Position numbers and translations under genes: made by a program | Assembly (NCBI GenBank): GCA_022482495.1 | Contig: JAKVPA010000004.1 | Coordinates: 124,001 to 188,000 of the forward strand | Source: Sphaerochaeta sp. | GTDB lineage: Bacteria; Spirochaetota; Spirochaetia; Sphaerochaetales; Sphaerochaetaceae | Direction: 5' to 3' | DNA: 64,000 nucleotides | The notes under the pieces: model-generated | Told to the model about the DNA's origin: nothing | The model's input: the letters and a program-made list of their open reading frames with translations, nothing else | Database searches by the model: none | Shown: piece after piece, positions 9,142 to 14,525 of the stretch | How the letters are laid out: each line of letters opens with the position of its first letter | Numbering within the stretch: position 1 is the first letter of the stretch

Positions 9142-12048
9142 ATGAGTGACCAGCAGTTCAAAGAAGGGGATTCGGTTTCCCAGTTCACGTTGCGTCAGGT
9201 GTGCGACCTTCCCGATTACCAGGCGAAGGGATACCTGTTCGTCCATGATGTCACCGGTATGGAAGTCTGCTTTGTGGAGAACCAGGATTCCGAGCAGTTC
9301 TTCAGCTACATCGTCCGGACCATCCCCACCGATGACACCGGAGTGCCCCACATTCTGGAACACAGCACGCTTTCCGGAAGCAGGAAGTACCCGGTGCATG
9401 ATCCATTCATGGATTTGGAGAAAGGGTCGACCAACACCTATCTCAACGCGATGACCTATCCGGACAAGACGATCTATCTTGCCGCCTCCCCGCTCTCCAA
9501 GGATTTCTCCAACCTGTTTTCCGTGTACACCGACGCGGTGTTCCACCCGTTGCTTCGCAAGGAAGCGTTCCAGCAGGAGGGGATCCGTCTGGTCAAGGAT
9601 GCCAAAGGCGTCCGCTGGGAAGGGGTGGTGTTCAGCGAGATGCTGGGCTCGGCAGCCGATCATGACGAGGTGCTTGCCCGTCAGGTGATCAAAGCGCTGT
9701 ATCCGGATGACTGCTATCGCTTTGATTCCGGCGGGAACCCCTGTTCCATCATTCATCTGACCTACCAGGGGTATCTGGATTTTTATCGTTCCCATTACCA
9801 TCCTTCCAACTGCCGGCTTTTGGTCTACGGGGACAATGATATTCCCGCCCTGTTGTCCTTCCTGCAGGACGGTTATCTGAAAGACTACCAACGGGGGGTG
9901 ACGCTTCCTCCGGTTTCCTTGGATCCCGCCTGGCATGGCGCGAGCAAGGTCGTTCCCGGACCATTGGAAGGGAAAGGCAAGGAGAACGGCGCGTCGATCC
10001 TTGTGGCGTGGCGGACGACCGACGCGTCCGATCCCTTGGAAGTGACCACCTTGGACACGCTCTCCGACCTGCTTCTGGATGATCCCAGTTGCCCGTTGTA
10101 CAAAGCGTTGCTGGAATCCGGATTGGGGGAGGACATCTCCCCGGAGTCCGGCATGGTGGCCGATTTTCCCCAGATGCCGTTCATGGCCGGCTTCAAGGGC
10201 ATCAAACCGGGAAAGGAAGACGAAGTGGTGGAGCTGGTGGACCGGACGCTCCGCTCCATCGTCAAGGAAGGAATCGGGGAGGAAGCCATCCAAGGCAGGA
10301 TGAAGCGTTCCCGCTTCAAACAGCAGGAGATCGCGGGCTCCGTTCCCCAGGGACTGAGGATCATGGACCGCGCCATGGCAGGCTGGATGAACGGCAAAGG
10401 TCCGTTCTCCACCATGCAGGTGGGGCCGGCGTTGGACGCGTTGGATGCGCAATTGGCAAAAGATCCCCGGTATTTTGAGCATTGGATCGAACGAAACCTG
10501 CTGGACAATCCCCGACGGGTCGTCATCTCGCTGTACCCTGATGAAGCGTACCTGAAGCACCAGCAGGAGTATCTTGCCCAACAGGCGGAGAAAGCGGTGA
10601 CGGCCGACGCCACGTTGGACGAGGAAAGCCGCCATTTTCTGGAATACGAGAATACGCCGGATGGTGAAGAAGCCCACAGGAGCGTTCCCCGTCTGTCCAT
10701 CGCCGACCTGCCGGTGGACATCAAACCCAACCGGTATGAGACCCACCTCTGTCTGGATCGGCCGGTGTATACGATGCAGCAGTTCTGCAACGGCATCGTC
10801 TACCTCTCCATCGCCGTCCTGGTGGACGACCTGCCCGACGAGGAGTTCCGGTATCTTTCCCTGTACACACGGCTGTTGCTGGAGACCGGGGTGGGGAAAC
10901 TGAATGACCGAGAGGCGGCGCTGACGATGAAACGGCTGTTTGGGGGCGTGGCCATTCTGGTGGACAGTGACAGCGACATGCAGGACCATCAGTCTCATGC
11001 CACGGTGACGGTCCGGCTGAAGATGCTGAAGAAGGATCTGCCTGAGGCGTTGGCGTTCGCCACCGACCTGTGGCTTTCCGCCCATGTCACCGACAAGGCG
11101 CGGATCCATGTGGCGTTGGGGGATCTGAAAGGGGACTACCGTGACAGCGTCACCTATGGGGCGAGCAGTTTCGCCAGCCTGTACGCGTCCGCTCCGTTCA
11201 CCCAGGCAGGGTGGGAGAGCGAGGAGGTGGGTGGCGTGAGCCAGTGGGAGTTCCTCACCGGCCTGAAACACTTGGATGCCGTCTCCGCCATGATGGGCAG
11301 GCTCCAGGAGAAACTTGCATCCCGCAGCAGGATGGTCTTCCACCTCACCGGGGATGACCCCGTGTCATTGCTTCCCTCCATGGAGCGGTTCATTGGTTCC
11401 TTTCCGGACAGGCAGGTGCCGGCAGTCCGTCGCACCCAGCCGTTGATCGCTCCGGATGAAGTGCGGTACCGGGCGTTCTCGCTTCCCAGCAACGTCAGCT
11501 ACTGCGCCCTGGTGCATCGCAGTGATCCCCTCTCCAGCCCGCTCCAGGTTGCCGAAATGGTGCTGGGGCAGATCATGACGACCAATGACCTGTGGAGCAG
11601 CGTCCGTATGAAAGGCGGGGCGTACGGGGTGGATGCCCGTACCAATCTGTCCGACCAGCTGTTCCAGTTCATCACCTACCGGGATCCCCGCATCAGCGGC
11701 AGTTTCCAGGATTACCGGACGGTGTTGCAACGGTATGCGGCAGAGGAGCCTTCCCAGGAAGAGATCGAGAACGCCAAGATTTCGTTGATCGGCCTGGAAC
11801 TCAAGCCGCTGGGCCCCAGTCAGGCGGCGACGATTTCATTCAAGCGGATTTTGATGCGGTACGATGACGTGATGCGCGAGGCGCGGCGAAGACAGTTGCT
11901 TTCCGTGGACGGCGCGATGCTTCGTCAGGCGGCGGAAAGCCTGCTGGCGAAGTTGGACGCCGAGCGGAGTCTGGTGGTGTTCACCTCCCGCAAGATGCTG
12001 CAGAAGGATGGCGCGTTCCCCGCTCAGCTGACGTCGCTTCCGTTGTAA
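9142..12048 (+). CDS. M16C zinc metalloprotease (presequence-protease type)
   Basis: 968 residues, the length of PreP-like, single-chain insulinase-family proteases. The inverted zinc motif HILEH is present (His70, Glu73, His74) in TGVPHILEHSTLSG, followed by the distal Glu region (GVVFSEMLGSAADHDEVL). The KGSTNTYLNAMTYPDKTIY segment is diagnostic of the M16C family. The C-terminal half contains the catalytically silent second pair of M16 domains. These enzymes degrade free peptides inside a closed chamber. No signal peptide is seen, so it is cytosolic. No Shine-Dalgarno; a TATGCT hexamer (9128-9133) ends 8 bases before the ATG but has only a poor -35. The 3' end overlaps the convergent hydrogenase-like gene by 25 bases. 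Confidence 0.92.
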   Translation: MSDQQFKEGDSVSQFTLRQVCDLPDYQAKGYLFVHDVTGMEVCFVENQDSEQFFSYIVRTIPTDDTGVPHILEHSTLSGSRKYPVHDPFMDLEKGSTNTYLNAMTYPDKTIYLAASPLSKDFSNLFSVYTDAVFHPLLRKEAFQQEGIRLVKDAKGVRWEGVVFSEMLGSAADHDEVLARQVIKALYPDDCYRFDSGGNPCSIIHLTYQGYLDFYRSHYHPSNCRLLVYGDNDIPALLSFLQDGYLKDYQRGVTLPPVSLDPAWHGASKVVPGPLEGKGKENGASILVAWRTTDASDPLEVTTLDTLSDLLLDDPSCPLYKALLESGLGEDISPESGMVADFPQMPFMAGFKGIKPGKEDEVVELVDRTLRSIVKEGIGEEAIQGRMKRSRFKQQEIAGSVPQGLRIMDRAMAGWMNGKGPFSTMQVGPALDALDAQLAKDPRYFEHWIERNLLDNPRRVVISLYPDEAYLKHQQEYLAQQAEKAVTADATLDEESRHFLEYENTPDGEEAHRSVPRLSIADLPVDIKPNRYETHLCLDRPVYTMQQFCNGIVYLSIAVLVDDLPDEEFRYLSLYTRLLLETGVGKLNDREAALTMKRLFGGVAILVDSDSDMQDHQSHATVTVRLKMLKKDLPEALAFATDLWLSAHVTDKARIHVALGDLKGDYRDSVTYGASSFASLYASAPFTQAGWESEEVGGVSQWEFLTGLKHLDAVSAMMGRLQEKLASRSRMVFHLTGDDPVSLLPSMERFIGSFPDRQVPAVRRTQPLIAPDEVRYRAFSLPSNVSYCALVHRSDPLSSPLQVAEMVLGQIMTTNDLWSSVRMKGGAYGVDARTNLSDQLFQFITYRDPRISGSFQDYRTVLQRYAAEEPSQEEIENAKISLIGLELKPLGPSQAATISFKRILMRYDDVMREARRRQLLSVDGAMLRQAAESLLAKLDAERSLVVFTSRKMLQKDGAFPAQLTSLPL

Positions 12049-13361
12049 AGTCCTTTTCCCAAGGAACGATCGCCCCAGATTTTGGAGAGTTGGTTCATCA
12101 ACTTGGGATCTTTGAGCTTCAGGACGACGCACTGGCGGATGGATGCCTCGCTGCGGGCGATATCTTCGGCCAGCGTCCTGCAGGTCGGCGCGCCGCACAG
12201 TCCGCAGTCGATGCCGGGAAGCGCGTTCGCGATCATCCGGGAGTTCTCCATCTTGTGGATCGCCTTGGACGTGTCGGTGTCCCAGACCAGTGCCTCCGAG
12301 GGGATGGGGCGTTCCATCTCCATGTCGTTTCTGATGATGTCCTGGTACTGGTCGATCCGCTCCTGCAGCGCGTCATCCAGTTCGGACGGCAGGCTTTGCG
12401 CCCAGTGGCGGAGCCGTTCGTTGGCCAGGAACCGGTTGCGTACGGTAAGCACGCCGCCGGCGCATCCCTCGGCGCAGGCGTCCAGTTCCAGGAAATTCAG
12501 GTTGGTGTTCTCGTCTTCCTCCAGCTGTTCCAGGAAGTCGATGACGTTGTGCATTTCATCCACCGCCATGGCGCGCTCGGTGACGCCAATGCATTCCCCC
12601 TTGACGGTGGACCAGAGCAGTGCGGATGCCGTGCATCCGGGGAAGGTGAAGCCATCGGGAAGGGAAGGATCCGGGGTCTTGTGGGAAGAGAGGTATTCCC
12701 TGACCTTGTTGTACGCCGTATCCATGTTGATGGCTCCTTGGAACAGTCTGCTTTCATCGCTGCCGGTGGTCTTGATCTGGGCGATTTTCGCCGCGCAGGG
12801 GGTGAAATAAAATACCCCGATGGTCTGGGCGTCCACACCTTCGGCAAGGATCTCGGCACGGGCGAACATCGCCATGATCTGCGACGGGGGCCTGCGAAGG
12901 GTCAGATCCTCAAGCAACAGGGGATAGCGCATCTGGATCAGTTTCATCACCGCCGGACAGTAGTTGCTGATGGTCAGTCCTGTTTTGGGGATGATCCGGG
13001 GAGAGAGCTGGTTCAGGACATCCACGCCGCTTTCGGCCAGGTACAGGTCGGTGAATCCCAGTTGTCGGATCGCCTGGCAGATATGGGGGATGGTGTACGT
13101 GTCGGGAAACTGGGCGAAGAAGATGGCCGGGACGATGGCCACCCGGCGCGCGTAGCGGGTGACCTCTCCGAACGGTGTCTGTTCGATGCGGATCGCCCCA
13201 TGGGGGCAGGCGTGCAGGCATTGCCCGCAGTTGATGCACAGTCCGGAGAGCACGTGGGCATGGCCGTCATGGATCCTGATGGCTTGGGTGGGGCACTGCT
13301 TCATGCAGTGGGTGCATCCCCAACACACATCCTGGTCGATGGTCAGACTATGATGCATCAT
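12024..13361 (-). CDS. [FeFe]-hydrogenase-like iron-sulfur protein, probably sensory
   Basis: 445 residues, GAAGGAGGAA before the ATG. Order: two 4Fe-4S ferredoxin motifs (Cys13/16/19/23 and 42/45/48/52), a [FeFe]-hydrogenase large-subunit domain (about 70-320), and a C-terminal 4-Cys FeS domain (Cys386, 389, 394, 411; IDCGLCGAPTC). The four Cys that hold the H-cluster cubane in true enzymes appear retained (Cys135, 189, 296, 300), as is Lys192. The proton-transfer Cys of the first loop is Tyr134 (SNYCPAVM in place of TSCCPxW), the Met of the second loop is Thr187, and the third loop lacks the GGGQP ending. It is therefore unlikely to be a fast H2-producing enzyme and resembles sensory-type hydrogenase homologues. 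Its RsbW-like and DRTGG neighbours support signalling. No maturase or NuoE/NuoF gene lies in the window. Confidence 0.85.
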   Translation of the reverse strand: MMHHSLTIDQDVCWGCTHCMKQCPTQAIRIHDGHAHVLSGLCINCGQCLHACPHGAIRIEQTPFGEVTRYARRVAIVPAIFFAQFPDTYTIPHICQAIRQLGFTDLYLAESGVDVLNQLSPRIIPKTGLTISNYCPAVMKLIQMRYPLLLEDLTLRRPPSQIMAMFARAEILAEGVDAQTIGVFYFTPCAAKIAQIKTTGSDESRLFQGAINMDTAYNKVREYLSSHKTPDPSLPDGFTFPGCTASALLWSTVKGECIGVTERAMAVDEMHNVIDFLEQLEEDENTNLNFLELDACAEGCAGGVLTVRNRFLANERLRHWAQSLPSELDDALQERIDQYQDIIRNDMEMERPIPSEALVWDTDTSKAIHKMENSRMIANALPGIDCGLCGAPTCRTLAEDIARSEASIRQCVVLKLKDPKLMNQLSKIWGDRSLGKGLYNGSDVS

Positions 13362-13369
13362 TTCCTCCT

Positions 13370-13783
13370 TCAGGCAATCTTGAAGAACATCGTGATATGG
13401 GTATGGTCGCCCGCCTTGGTGACGATGTCCAGCTTGTCGGCGTTCTTCTTGATGTTGGGCAGCCCCATGCCAGCCCCGTATCCCAACGCCCTCACTTCAT
13501 CACTTGCCGTCGACCATCCCTCCTGCATGGCGAGGTTCAGGTCCGGAATTCCCGGTCCGGTGTCGATCACCTGGACCGTCACGCCGGACTCATCCACATC
13601 CAGCACCACCTTTCCCCCGTAACTGTGGGCGATGACATTCACCTCCGCCTCGAACGTGGCGACGACGATCCGTTTGATGACCAGGGGGTTGATGCCCAGT
13701 TTCTTCAGGATCTGCTTGATGGCGCTTGCCGCCGCACCTGCCACGGAGAAGTCTTTCGCCGGTACCGCATATTCCGCATGCAT
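13370..13783 (-). CDS. RsbW-like ATP-binding regulatory protein (HATPase)
   Basis: 137 residues, a stand-alone GHKL ATPase domain of the anti-sigma-factor/serine kinase kind. The N box is in FEAEVNVIAHSYGG, the G1 box is DTGPGIPD and the G2 box GYGAGMGLPNI. The long ATP lid of SpoIIAB is short, as in the versions found in hydrogenase gene clusters of Clostridia and Thermotogae. It may phosphorylate or bind a partner, with the DRTGG proteins or the hydrogenase-like protein as candidates. It is separated by one base from the upstream DRTGG gene and by 8 from the downstream FeS gene, so all are probably co-translated. No STAS (anti-anti-sigma) gene is in the window. Confidence 0.85.
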   Translation of the reverse strand: MHAEYAVPAKDFSVAGAAASAIKQILKKLGINPLVIKRIVVATFEAEVNVIAHSYGGKVVLDVDESGVTVQVIDTGPGIPDLNLAMQEGWSTASDEVRALGYGAGMGLPNIKKNADKLDIVTKAGDHTHITMFFKIA

Positions 13784-13784
13784 C

Positions 13785-14129
13785 TCAATACACCGGCTTC
13801 AATCCCGCATTGTACAGAAGCGCGCTGGACTTGAATGCCGAATACGGGGTGCAGGCAAGTGCGATGTCCAGCTCGTTGGCCATCGCGATCATCGTCTGGC
13901 TGGGGAACTTGTTCCTGACCAGAAGAATGTTGGCGATGTCACTCATTTCCGCCGTGCGGATGCTCTGGTTGTTGGACAACCCGGTGATGAGCAGGATGTC
14001 GTCCTCAAGAAGGGTCAGCACATCGCTCATCAGGTCGCTGGCGAACCCAAGCCGCACCTCCTGGTCAAGGTGGGACTGTCCGCACACCAGTTTCGCTCCG
14101 GTAACCTGGATGACTTCACGGAATTTCAT
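13785..14129 (-). CDS. DRTGG-domain protein (second copy)
   Basis: 114 residues, a single DRTGG-type domain: KFREVIQVTGAKLVCG, a central SDVLTLLEDDILLITGLSNN strand-turn, then RTAEMSDIANILLVRNKFPS and an Ala-rich helix. DRTGG domains also occur in phosphotransacetylases and CBS-pyrophosphatases, where they contribute to adenine-nucleotide binding; that property is assumed, not shown. It resembles the gene at 14178-14525 along its whole length, so the pair probably arose by duplication and may form a heterodimer. It lies one base before the RsbW-like gene. Confidence 0.8.
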   Translation of the reverse strand: MKFREVIQVTGAKLVCGQSHLDQEVRLGFASDLMSDVLTLLEDDILLITGLSNNQSIRTAEMSDIANILLVRNKFPSQTMIAMANELDIALACTPYSAFKSSALLYNAGLKPVY

Positions 14130-14177
14130 GGAAAGAAGTATAGCACGAAACAGAGATGATGTGAGAAAAACAACCGG

Positions 14178-14525
14178 TCAGTGATACAGGCTGTTCACAC
14201 CGTTCTTGGAGAGCAGGTCGGTGACGGAAGAGAGATCCATCGCCGTGGTGGCCAGGGAGATGGCGGAAGCCTTGGCCAGGGCGATCATCGCCGCGGTGGG
14301 CTGGTGCCCGTCGGTGATCAGAATATCCGGGATGTCGCTCATCAGGGCGGTGCGAACCACCAGAATGCCGCACAGATCGGTGACCATCAAGGCATCAAAG
14401 CGGGAAAGCACCAGCACGGAACTCATCATCGATGTGGTGTACTCCAAGGATATCTCCTTCTCAGCGTGGAGATCCCCGGTCAGGGAGGTGCCTTGGACAA
14501 GGCGAATGATATCCTTCAGCAACAT
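14178..14525 (-). CDS. DRTGG-domain protein (first copy)
   Basis: 115 residues, same fold as its downstream neighbour: LLKDIIRLVQGTSLTGDL, SSVLVLSRFDALMVTDLCG, RTALMSDIPDILITDGHQPT, then LAKASAISLATTAMDLSSV. It leads the four-gene minus-strand cluster that ends with the hydrogenase-like gene. No Shine-Dalgarno precedes ATG 14525, and a weak promoter ends 6 bases upstream. A 48-base gap separates it from the second DRTGG gene, enough for a new ribosome site. Its role is unknown; a regulatory nucleotide-binding role is inferred from family and context. Confidence 0.8.
   Translation of the reverse strand: MLLKDIIRLVQGTSLTGDLHAEKEISLEYTTSMMSSVLVLSRFDALMVTDLCGILVVRTALMSDIPDILITDGHQPTAAMIALAKASAISLATTAMDLSSVTDLLSKNGVNSLYH

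Follow-up and report, generated by a model that had tools for sequence, protein, structure and literature searches.

A conserved DRTGG-ATPase-FeS gene module of the group D [FeFe]-hydrogenase lineage in Sphaerochaeta and its altered diiron pocket

Do four closely packed genes of a Sphaerochaeta genome, one of which encodes an [FeFe]-hydrogenase-like iron-sulfur (FeS) protein, form a signalling unit, and does the FeS protein still hold an H-cluster? The genes lie in a stretch of 64,000 nucleotides, here called the window, which covers positions 124,001-188,000 of contig C4 (JAKVPA010000004.1) in the Sphaerochaeta sp. assembly GCA_022482495.1 (2.25 Mb, 95.8% complete; reading frames are broken around the maturase genes). 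They are four minus-strand open reading frames running from 14525 to 12024 with gaps of 48, 1 and 8 bases (Table 1). A first-pass annotation, made from the sequence of the window alone, had described them as a stand-alone and little-described module consisting of a sensory [FeFe]-hydrogenase-like protein, an RsbW-like ATPase and two DRTGG proteins. We compared the locus with those of other Sphaerochaeta and Sphaerochaetaceae genomes (labelled G001 onward; loci carry the letter L) and conclude, with a probability of about one half, that the first DRTGG protein (D1), the ATPase and the FeS protein (14129-12024) constitute one sensor-transducer unit that is tied to hydrogenase metabolism.

Table 1. 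The module and its convergent neighbour, in coordinates of the window (aa, amino acids).
Feature	Positions	Strand	Length	Basis or remark
FeS protein, group D/M2e-lineage [FeFe]-hydrogenase-like	12024..13361	-	445 aa	Pfam, alignment, tree, model
SpoIIAB/RsbW-like GHKL ATPase	13370..13783	-	137 aa	Pfam, NCBIfam, structure alignment
DRTGG-domain protein, family D1	13785..14129	-	114 aa	precedes the ATPase gene as its conserved partner; Pfam, model
Second DRTGG-like protein, divergent tandem copy of D1	14178..14525	-	115 aa	D1 profile
M16/PreP-type peptidase gene	9142..12048	+		convergent with the FeS gene, overlap of 25 bp

Judged by its sequence, the FeS protein belongs, as a divergent member, to the group D (M2e, TamHydS-type) lineage of putative sensory [FeFe]-hydrogenases. 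This lineage is marked by a dicluster ferredoxin domain, an H-domain and a C-terminal Cx2Cx4Cx16C motif, by the lack of a PAS domain, and by Ser or Thr at the site corresponding to M353 of CpI (PMC8163306). The FeS protein has two N-terminal [4Fe-4S] motifs, which form the dicluster ferredoxin domain, followed by the H-domain (Fe_hyd_lg_C at residues 86-303) and a C-terminal FeS domain (PF04060 at 381-412) with the motif Cx2Cx4Cx16C (C386, C389, C394, C411). It is without a PAS domain, and Thr187 occupies the M353 site. Four cubane cysteines (Cys135, 189, 296 and 300) and Lys192 are present, all five sites being invariant in the 95 proteins compared, and the GGGQP ending is absent. In a phylogenetic tree, 93 group-D-like proteins are set apart from groups A, B and C (SH-aLRT, an approximate likelihood ratio test, 99%), and within them a subclade of Sphaerochaetales and Bacteroidota proteins is supported at 100%, its stem measuring 1.17 changes per site. 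The AlphaFold2 model of the FeS protein (predicted local distance difference test, pLDDT, 91.5; predicted template modelling score, pTM, 0.89) aligns with the solved [FeFe]-hydrogenases CpI, CbA5H, DdH and TmHydA over ∼345 residues with Z-scores of 27-30. Residues, tree and fold thus bear out the proposed sensory-hydrogenase type, and the details on which that proposal was built, from the number and spacing of the genes to the four cysteines, Lys192, Tyr134 at the C299 site, Thr187 and the missing GGGQP, were all found again in our analysis.

The best-studied relative is TamHydS of Thermoanaerobacter mathranii (PMC8163306, PMC10407848, PMC11803613, PMC13104023). Since the protein of Thermoanaerobacter wiegelii Rt8.B1 (L120) has every residue number that is quoted in the TamHydS papers, we took it as a proxy for TamHydS. 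The two share domain order, the lack of a PAS domain, Ser or Thr at the M353 site and an HATPase neighbour, but are only ∼32% identical. The alternative proton path of group D, E252/E289/D265 (PMC10407848), is kept in the FeS protein as E256, E292 and D268, as are R30, D378, E392 and D393. In contrast, A137 is changed to Tyr134, L291 to Asp294 and S249, an only moderately conserved position, to Val253; the loop with P231 and S232 of CpI is replaced, and R32 and D403 are not kept. Further differences are the long stem of the subclade to which the FeS protein belongs and the position of the module, directly upstream of HydABC in the case of TamHydS and 12 kb from it here.

The evidence that the FeS protein works with partners comes from gene order. 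In non-redundant loci picked by the FeS protein alone, the order DRTGG(D1)-ATPase-FeS was found in 21 of 22 loci of the Sphaerochaetales clade, in 31 of 31 of Bacteroidota and in 33 of 33 of Clostridia; adding the window and four more spirochaete loci brings this to 88 of 91. The exception among the 22 loci of the Sphaerochaetales clade is cut by a contig end (L048), and the other two have kept the ATPase gene but not the DRTGG gene (L049, L050). Because the three-gene order recurs in three phyla (Spirochaetota, Bacteroidota and Clostridia), it is far beyond chance, and the reading of the set as an operon holds. That the FeS protein is encoded beside the same two signalling-type partners in all three suggests a role as the sensor in a small unit that regulates hydrogen or redox metabolism.

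Of these partners, the ATPase matches HATPase_c_2 in Pfam and has SpoIIAB as its best NCBIfam match. Its scores are far below the equivalog cut-offs for SpoIIAB (45 against 135 bits) and RsbW (21.7 against 145 bits). It aligns over its full length with SpoIIAB structures and keeps the catalytic Glu, Asn and His, so that the RsbW-like character assigned to it is substantiated as SpoIIAB/RsbW type by structure alignment. The residues in question are E45, N49 and H53 of the N box, D74-G76-P77-G78 and G103-G105-G107; E45, N49, H53 and both glycine boxes are kept in ∼94 of 95 ATPase sequences.

The 114-aa protein D1 matches the DRTGG family (PF07085) with 30.4 bits, above the gathering threshold of 25.2, and its model (pLDDT 95.8) matches DRTGG structures, best 2ioj and further 3l31. 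Its family has the signature M-S-[DE]-V-L ... T-G-L-x-N-x-Q ... R-T-A-E and three invariant hydroxyl residues, Ser35, Thr49 and Thr59, which are possible phosphoacceptors. The domains of 2ioj (AF1212) and 3l31 (regulatory region of a CBS-pyrophosphatase) share this fold, but D1 stands alone, without a CBS or catalytic domain, and has its own signature. The annotation of two DRTGG proteins applies in full to D1 only, which is conserved. The 115-aa protein has no match to a Pfam family, scores 75.6 bits with the D1 profile, is 32% identical to D1 and has lost D32, G50, N53, Q55, R72 and K74 of the latter; among the genomes examined, its gene was seen in the Sphaerochaeta genome of the window only. 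By these comparisons it is a degenerate paralog of D1. The scores against the two families, 75.6 bits for D1 and 31 for D2, ruled out that it is D2, the downstream DRTGG protein of Clostridia. Likewise, an apparent fused double-DRTGG protein in L040 proved to be an over-extended start.

A link of the module to hydrogenase genes is seen in its surroundings. In Clostridia and Bacteroidota, the core is usually followed by a second DRTGG gene, a PHP gene, a second HATPase gene and HydABC, as in Thermoanaerobacter wiegelii with the order D1-ATPase-FeS-D2-PHP-HydC-HATPase-HydB-HydA; the similar sets that the first-pass annotation placed next to electron-bifurcating hydrogenases of Clostridia do exist there, beside trimeric hydrogenases (HydABC). 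The same annotation had noted that a HydA gene and genes of the NuoE/NuoF type are missing beside the module. This is correct within the window, but a search of the genome with PF02906, which returned four proteins, showed a group A HydA within an intact HydC-HATPase-HydB-HydA operon, next to which a rex gene runs divergently (C4, ∼117.7-123.6 kb). The operon ends 424 bp before the start of the window and lies 12.4 kb from the module, with HydA and the module facing each other. HydA faces the module at a distance of ∼12-16 kb in four relatives (G004, G010, G021, G024) and, as read from domain coordinates, in two more (G042, G045); in G041 the distance is ∼31 kb. With HydABC just outside and this linkage conserved in relatives, the module is stand-alone in the window only.

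Phosphatases of the SpoIIE type, which by analogy are a natural counterpart of a SpoIIAB-like kinase, occur in the vicinity of some modules. In eight Bacteroidota loci (L071, L076, L078, L081, L087, L088, L090, L092), a SpoIIE phosphatase gene and a gene for a shortened HydS/PAS-like protein lie divergently beside the module. In the genome of the window, contig C13 encodes a PAS-type HydS accompanied by a SpoIIE phosphatase, and also a group B enzyme. We observed that the three genes form one cluster there (L006, C13:10000-29000).

One line of evidence on whether the FeS protein holds an H-cluster is its pocket. All five diiron contacts of the functional enzyme that we compared (C299, P231, S232, M353 and M497 of CpI) are replaced in the FeS protein, whose pocket contains Tyr134, Asp294, Ala79, Ile80 and Thr187, plus Arg157 and Arg310. 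We counted these sites in 57 subclade proteins of Sphaerochaetales and Bacteroidota, a set that excludes the protein of the window and contains a few mutual duplicates. The C299 site is Tyr or Phe in 57 of 57, as opposed to Ala in 31 of 33 Clostridia; the M497 site carries a charged residue (Arg, Lys, Asp or Glu) in 57 of 57 and mostly Leu or Asn in Clostridia. At the P231 site, Ala, Ser, Thr or Gly are found (57 of 57 without Pro), whereas all 33 Clostridia have Pro. S232 is replaced in all 57 proteins, nearly always by a hydrophobic residue. Further, a Lys or Arg is found at position 157 of the FeS protein in 56 of 57 and an Arg at position 310 in 54 of 57. The cubane cysteines, Lys192, Ser/Thr187 and Glu292 are unchanged in kind throughout the subclade. 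The change around the diiron site is concerted and unlike random decay.

The second line of evidence is the distribution of the maturases HydE, HydF and HydG, for which we searched module-carrying genomes with NCBIfam models. All three are absent from 16 of the 21 spirochaete genomes of the subclade that were tested, among them the single-contig genomes G004 and G024; four genomes (G022, G027, G043, G047) have the module and all three maturases. In the genome of the window, neither profile nor BLAST searches found HydG in the 95.8% complete assembly, which has frame breaks in this region; hydE is split over reading frames and the hydF frame, which matches positions 2-352 of 392, runs in frame into AspA-like (ammonia-lyase) sequence. 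The breaks in hydE and hydF may be assembly errors or decay. The hydE pieces, spread over several frames (L131, C4:221000-232000), are adjoined by NifH-like and nitrogenase-component-like genes. In family f1 (Sphaerochaetaceae), members without the module included, HydG occurs in G017, G019 and G022 only. The rebuilt pocket and the losses of maturases together make the H-cluster of the FeS protein doubtful. The H-cluster considered in the first-pass annotation is thus compatible with the fold and loops of the H-domain, but not easily with an absent HydG, a split hydE and a truncated hydF.

These results allow, tentatively, for a FeS protein that has no diiron subsite and acts as a [4Fe-4S] sensor of redox state, or of a small ligand, on a hydrogenase scaffold. 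The replacement of the diiron contacts in concert, with the cubane ligands kept, in 57 proteins on their long stem argues for this reading, as does the persistence of the module in complete genomes without maturases. The invariance of Lys192 and Ser/Thr187 would be odd if the pocket were empty. Lys192 corresponds to CpI K358, which contacts a cyanide of the diiron site. A lack of maturases takes away the ground on which a diiron site is usually assumed, but canonical HydA (TSCCPAW, IMPCTAKK, ACRGGC...GGGQP) is present in maturase-less genomes, along with other hydrogenases of groups A to C, and the missing maturases are therefore no proof that the FeS protein is without one.

The situation is wider than the module. 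Most Sphaerochaetaceae that we tested are without HydG (the single contigs G004, G024 and G023; G010, G016, G018, G021 and others), and in those tested for all three maturases HydE and HydF are mostly missing too, although [FeFe]-hydrogenases of groups A, B and C are retained. Where they were read, in several of these genomes, the group A motifs are intact. Maturase-less Sphaerochaetaceae would then mature their hydrogenases by an unknown route, or these hydrogenases would work without the diiron site.

A possible but doubtful alternative sees in the FeS protein an ordinary sensory [FeFe]-hydrogenase of group D that holds a full H-cluster; Tyr134 and Asp294 would then only retune the affinity, and the signal would be H2. 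This would explain why the four cubane cysteines, Lys192, Thr187 and the proton path E256/D268/E292 (PMC10407848) are kept on an H-domain fold, and the subclade does co-occur with maturases, in the majority of the Bacteroidota searched for HydF and in the four spirochaete genomes mentioned above. It is difficult to reconcile with a C299 site that is always aromatic, an M497 site that is always charged and the loss of P231 and S232 in all 57 proteins, or with the 16 maturase-less spirochaete genomes and the missing HydG in the genome of the window.

It appears unlikely that the module serves HydABC as a non-signalling accessory, such as a partner in assembly, activation or electron transfer. 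Its location immediately before HydCBA in Clostridia and Bacteroidota, and the second HATPase gene inside the hydrogenase operon, are what one would expect of an accessory, but a SpoIIAB-type ATPase and DRTGG are regulatory folds and HydA occurs without the module in several members of the family. Finally, the idea that the module substitutes for the missing maturases in an alternative route of H-cluster assembly, suggested by its presence in genomes that lack all three and keep canonical hydrogenases, is rejected as highly improbable on distribution, since genomes with all three maturases also carry the module and G005, G008, G012, G014 and G023 have kept HydA without either HydG or the module.

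If D1, the ATPase and the FeS protein do form a sensor-transducer unit, the FeS protein would be its input, with the cubane, possibly together with a ligand in the rebuilt diiron pocket, responding to redox state or H2. The kinase-like ATPase would read this state, presumably through contact with the FeS protein, and would either act on the DRTGG protein, conceivably by phosphorylating it, or be gated by it, a step that we model on the partner switching of SpoIIAB and RsbW. The counter-acting phosphatase would probably be of the SpoIIE type, and the one on contig C13 could oppose the kinase-like ATPase of the window. The 115-aa copy may compete with D1 or tune it. The output most likely would control hydrogenase or fermentative redox metabolism, given that only 12.4 kb separate HydABC from the module here and that it follows the module immediately in Clostridia and Bacteroidota. 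In its most specific form, in which the subclade lost the diiron subsite, no longer needs HydEFG and became a cubane-based sensor of redox state or a ligand that drives an undescribed SpoIIAB-like kinase-DRTGG partner switch, the proposal is speculative and we would not expect it to hold in every part.

Several observations weigh against such a unit. There is no gene for a sigma factor or a STAS antagonist beside the module, a search for Rex operators in the window and the HydABC locus gave no excess over chance, and promoter and terminator scans remained at chance level, with no convincing promoter. The module is missing from G001 and G002, which belong to the same genus, and the FeS protein of the window is on a fast branch of the tree. 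In a mirror-tree comparison, the FeS, ATPase and DRTGG families were correlated, but no more so than with the unrelated M16 neighbour; because the latter correlates as strongly, the comparison is uninformative. This M16/PreP-type peptidase gene lies convergently to the FeS gene in 21 of 22 loci of the Sphaerochaetales clade; we regard it as a syntenic neighbour that probably does not belong to the module. As a side observation, G001 and G002 have kept HydF as their sole maturase and possess hydrogenases of groups A, B and C.

Two known types of system resemble the module in part. The phosphatase-linked HydS of group C3 (PMC5037454), of which the PAS-type HydS on contig C13 is an example, also has a sensor-type H-domain without the proton-transfer cysteine and a C-terminal FeS domain, and is adjoined by a phosphatase of the partner-switching type. 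It differs in having a PAS domain, a Gly at the M353 site and a SpoIIE phosphatase as neighbour where the module has a kinase-like ATPase. The switches SpoIIAB/SpoIIAA/SpoIIE and RsbW/RsbV/RsbU share the fold and catalytic residues of the ATPase, as well as the SpoIIE-type phosphatase seen in some Bacteroidota, but in the module the place of the partner is taken by the DRTGG protein and not by a STAS antagonist with its sigma factor.

The idea itself is less novel than was initially assumed. Group D (M2e) proteins, their proposed sensory role and their ATPase neighbour have been described, and TamHydS was found to have H2-sensor-like properties, its signalling route being stated as an open question (PMC8163306). 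Among the papers covered by a full-text search, none joins DRTGG with the group D hydrogenase type, the only match being an unrelated one in Desulfovibrio. As far as can be told, what is new is the near-universal DRTGG-ATPase-FeS core, the subclade with its aromatic and charged pocket residues, and the persistence of this subclade in maturase-less genomes. The conserved order names two candidate partners for group D signalling, where previously there was one (PMC8163306). Further, the rebuilt pocket in maturase-less genomes offers natural proteins for probing the hydrogenase scaffold without a diiron site, or with an altered one.

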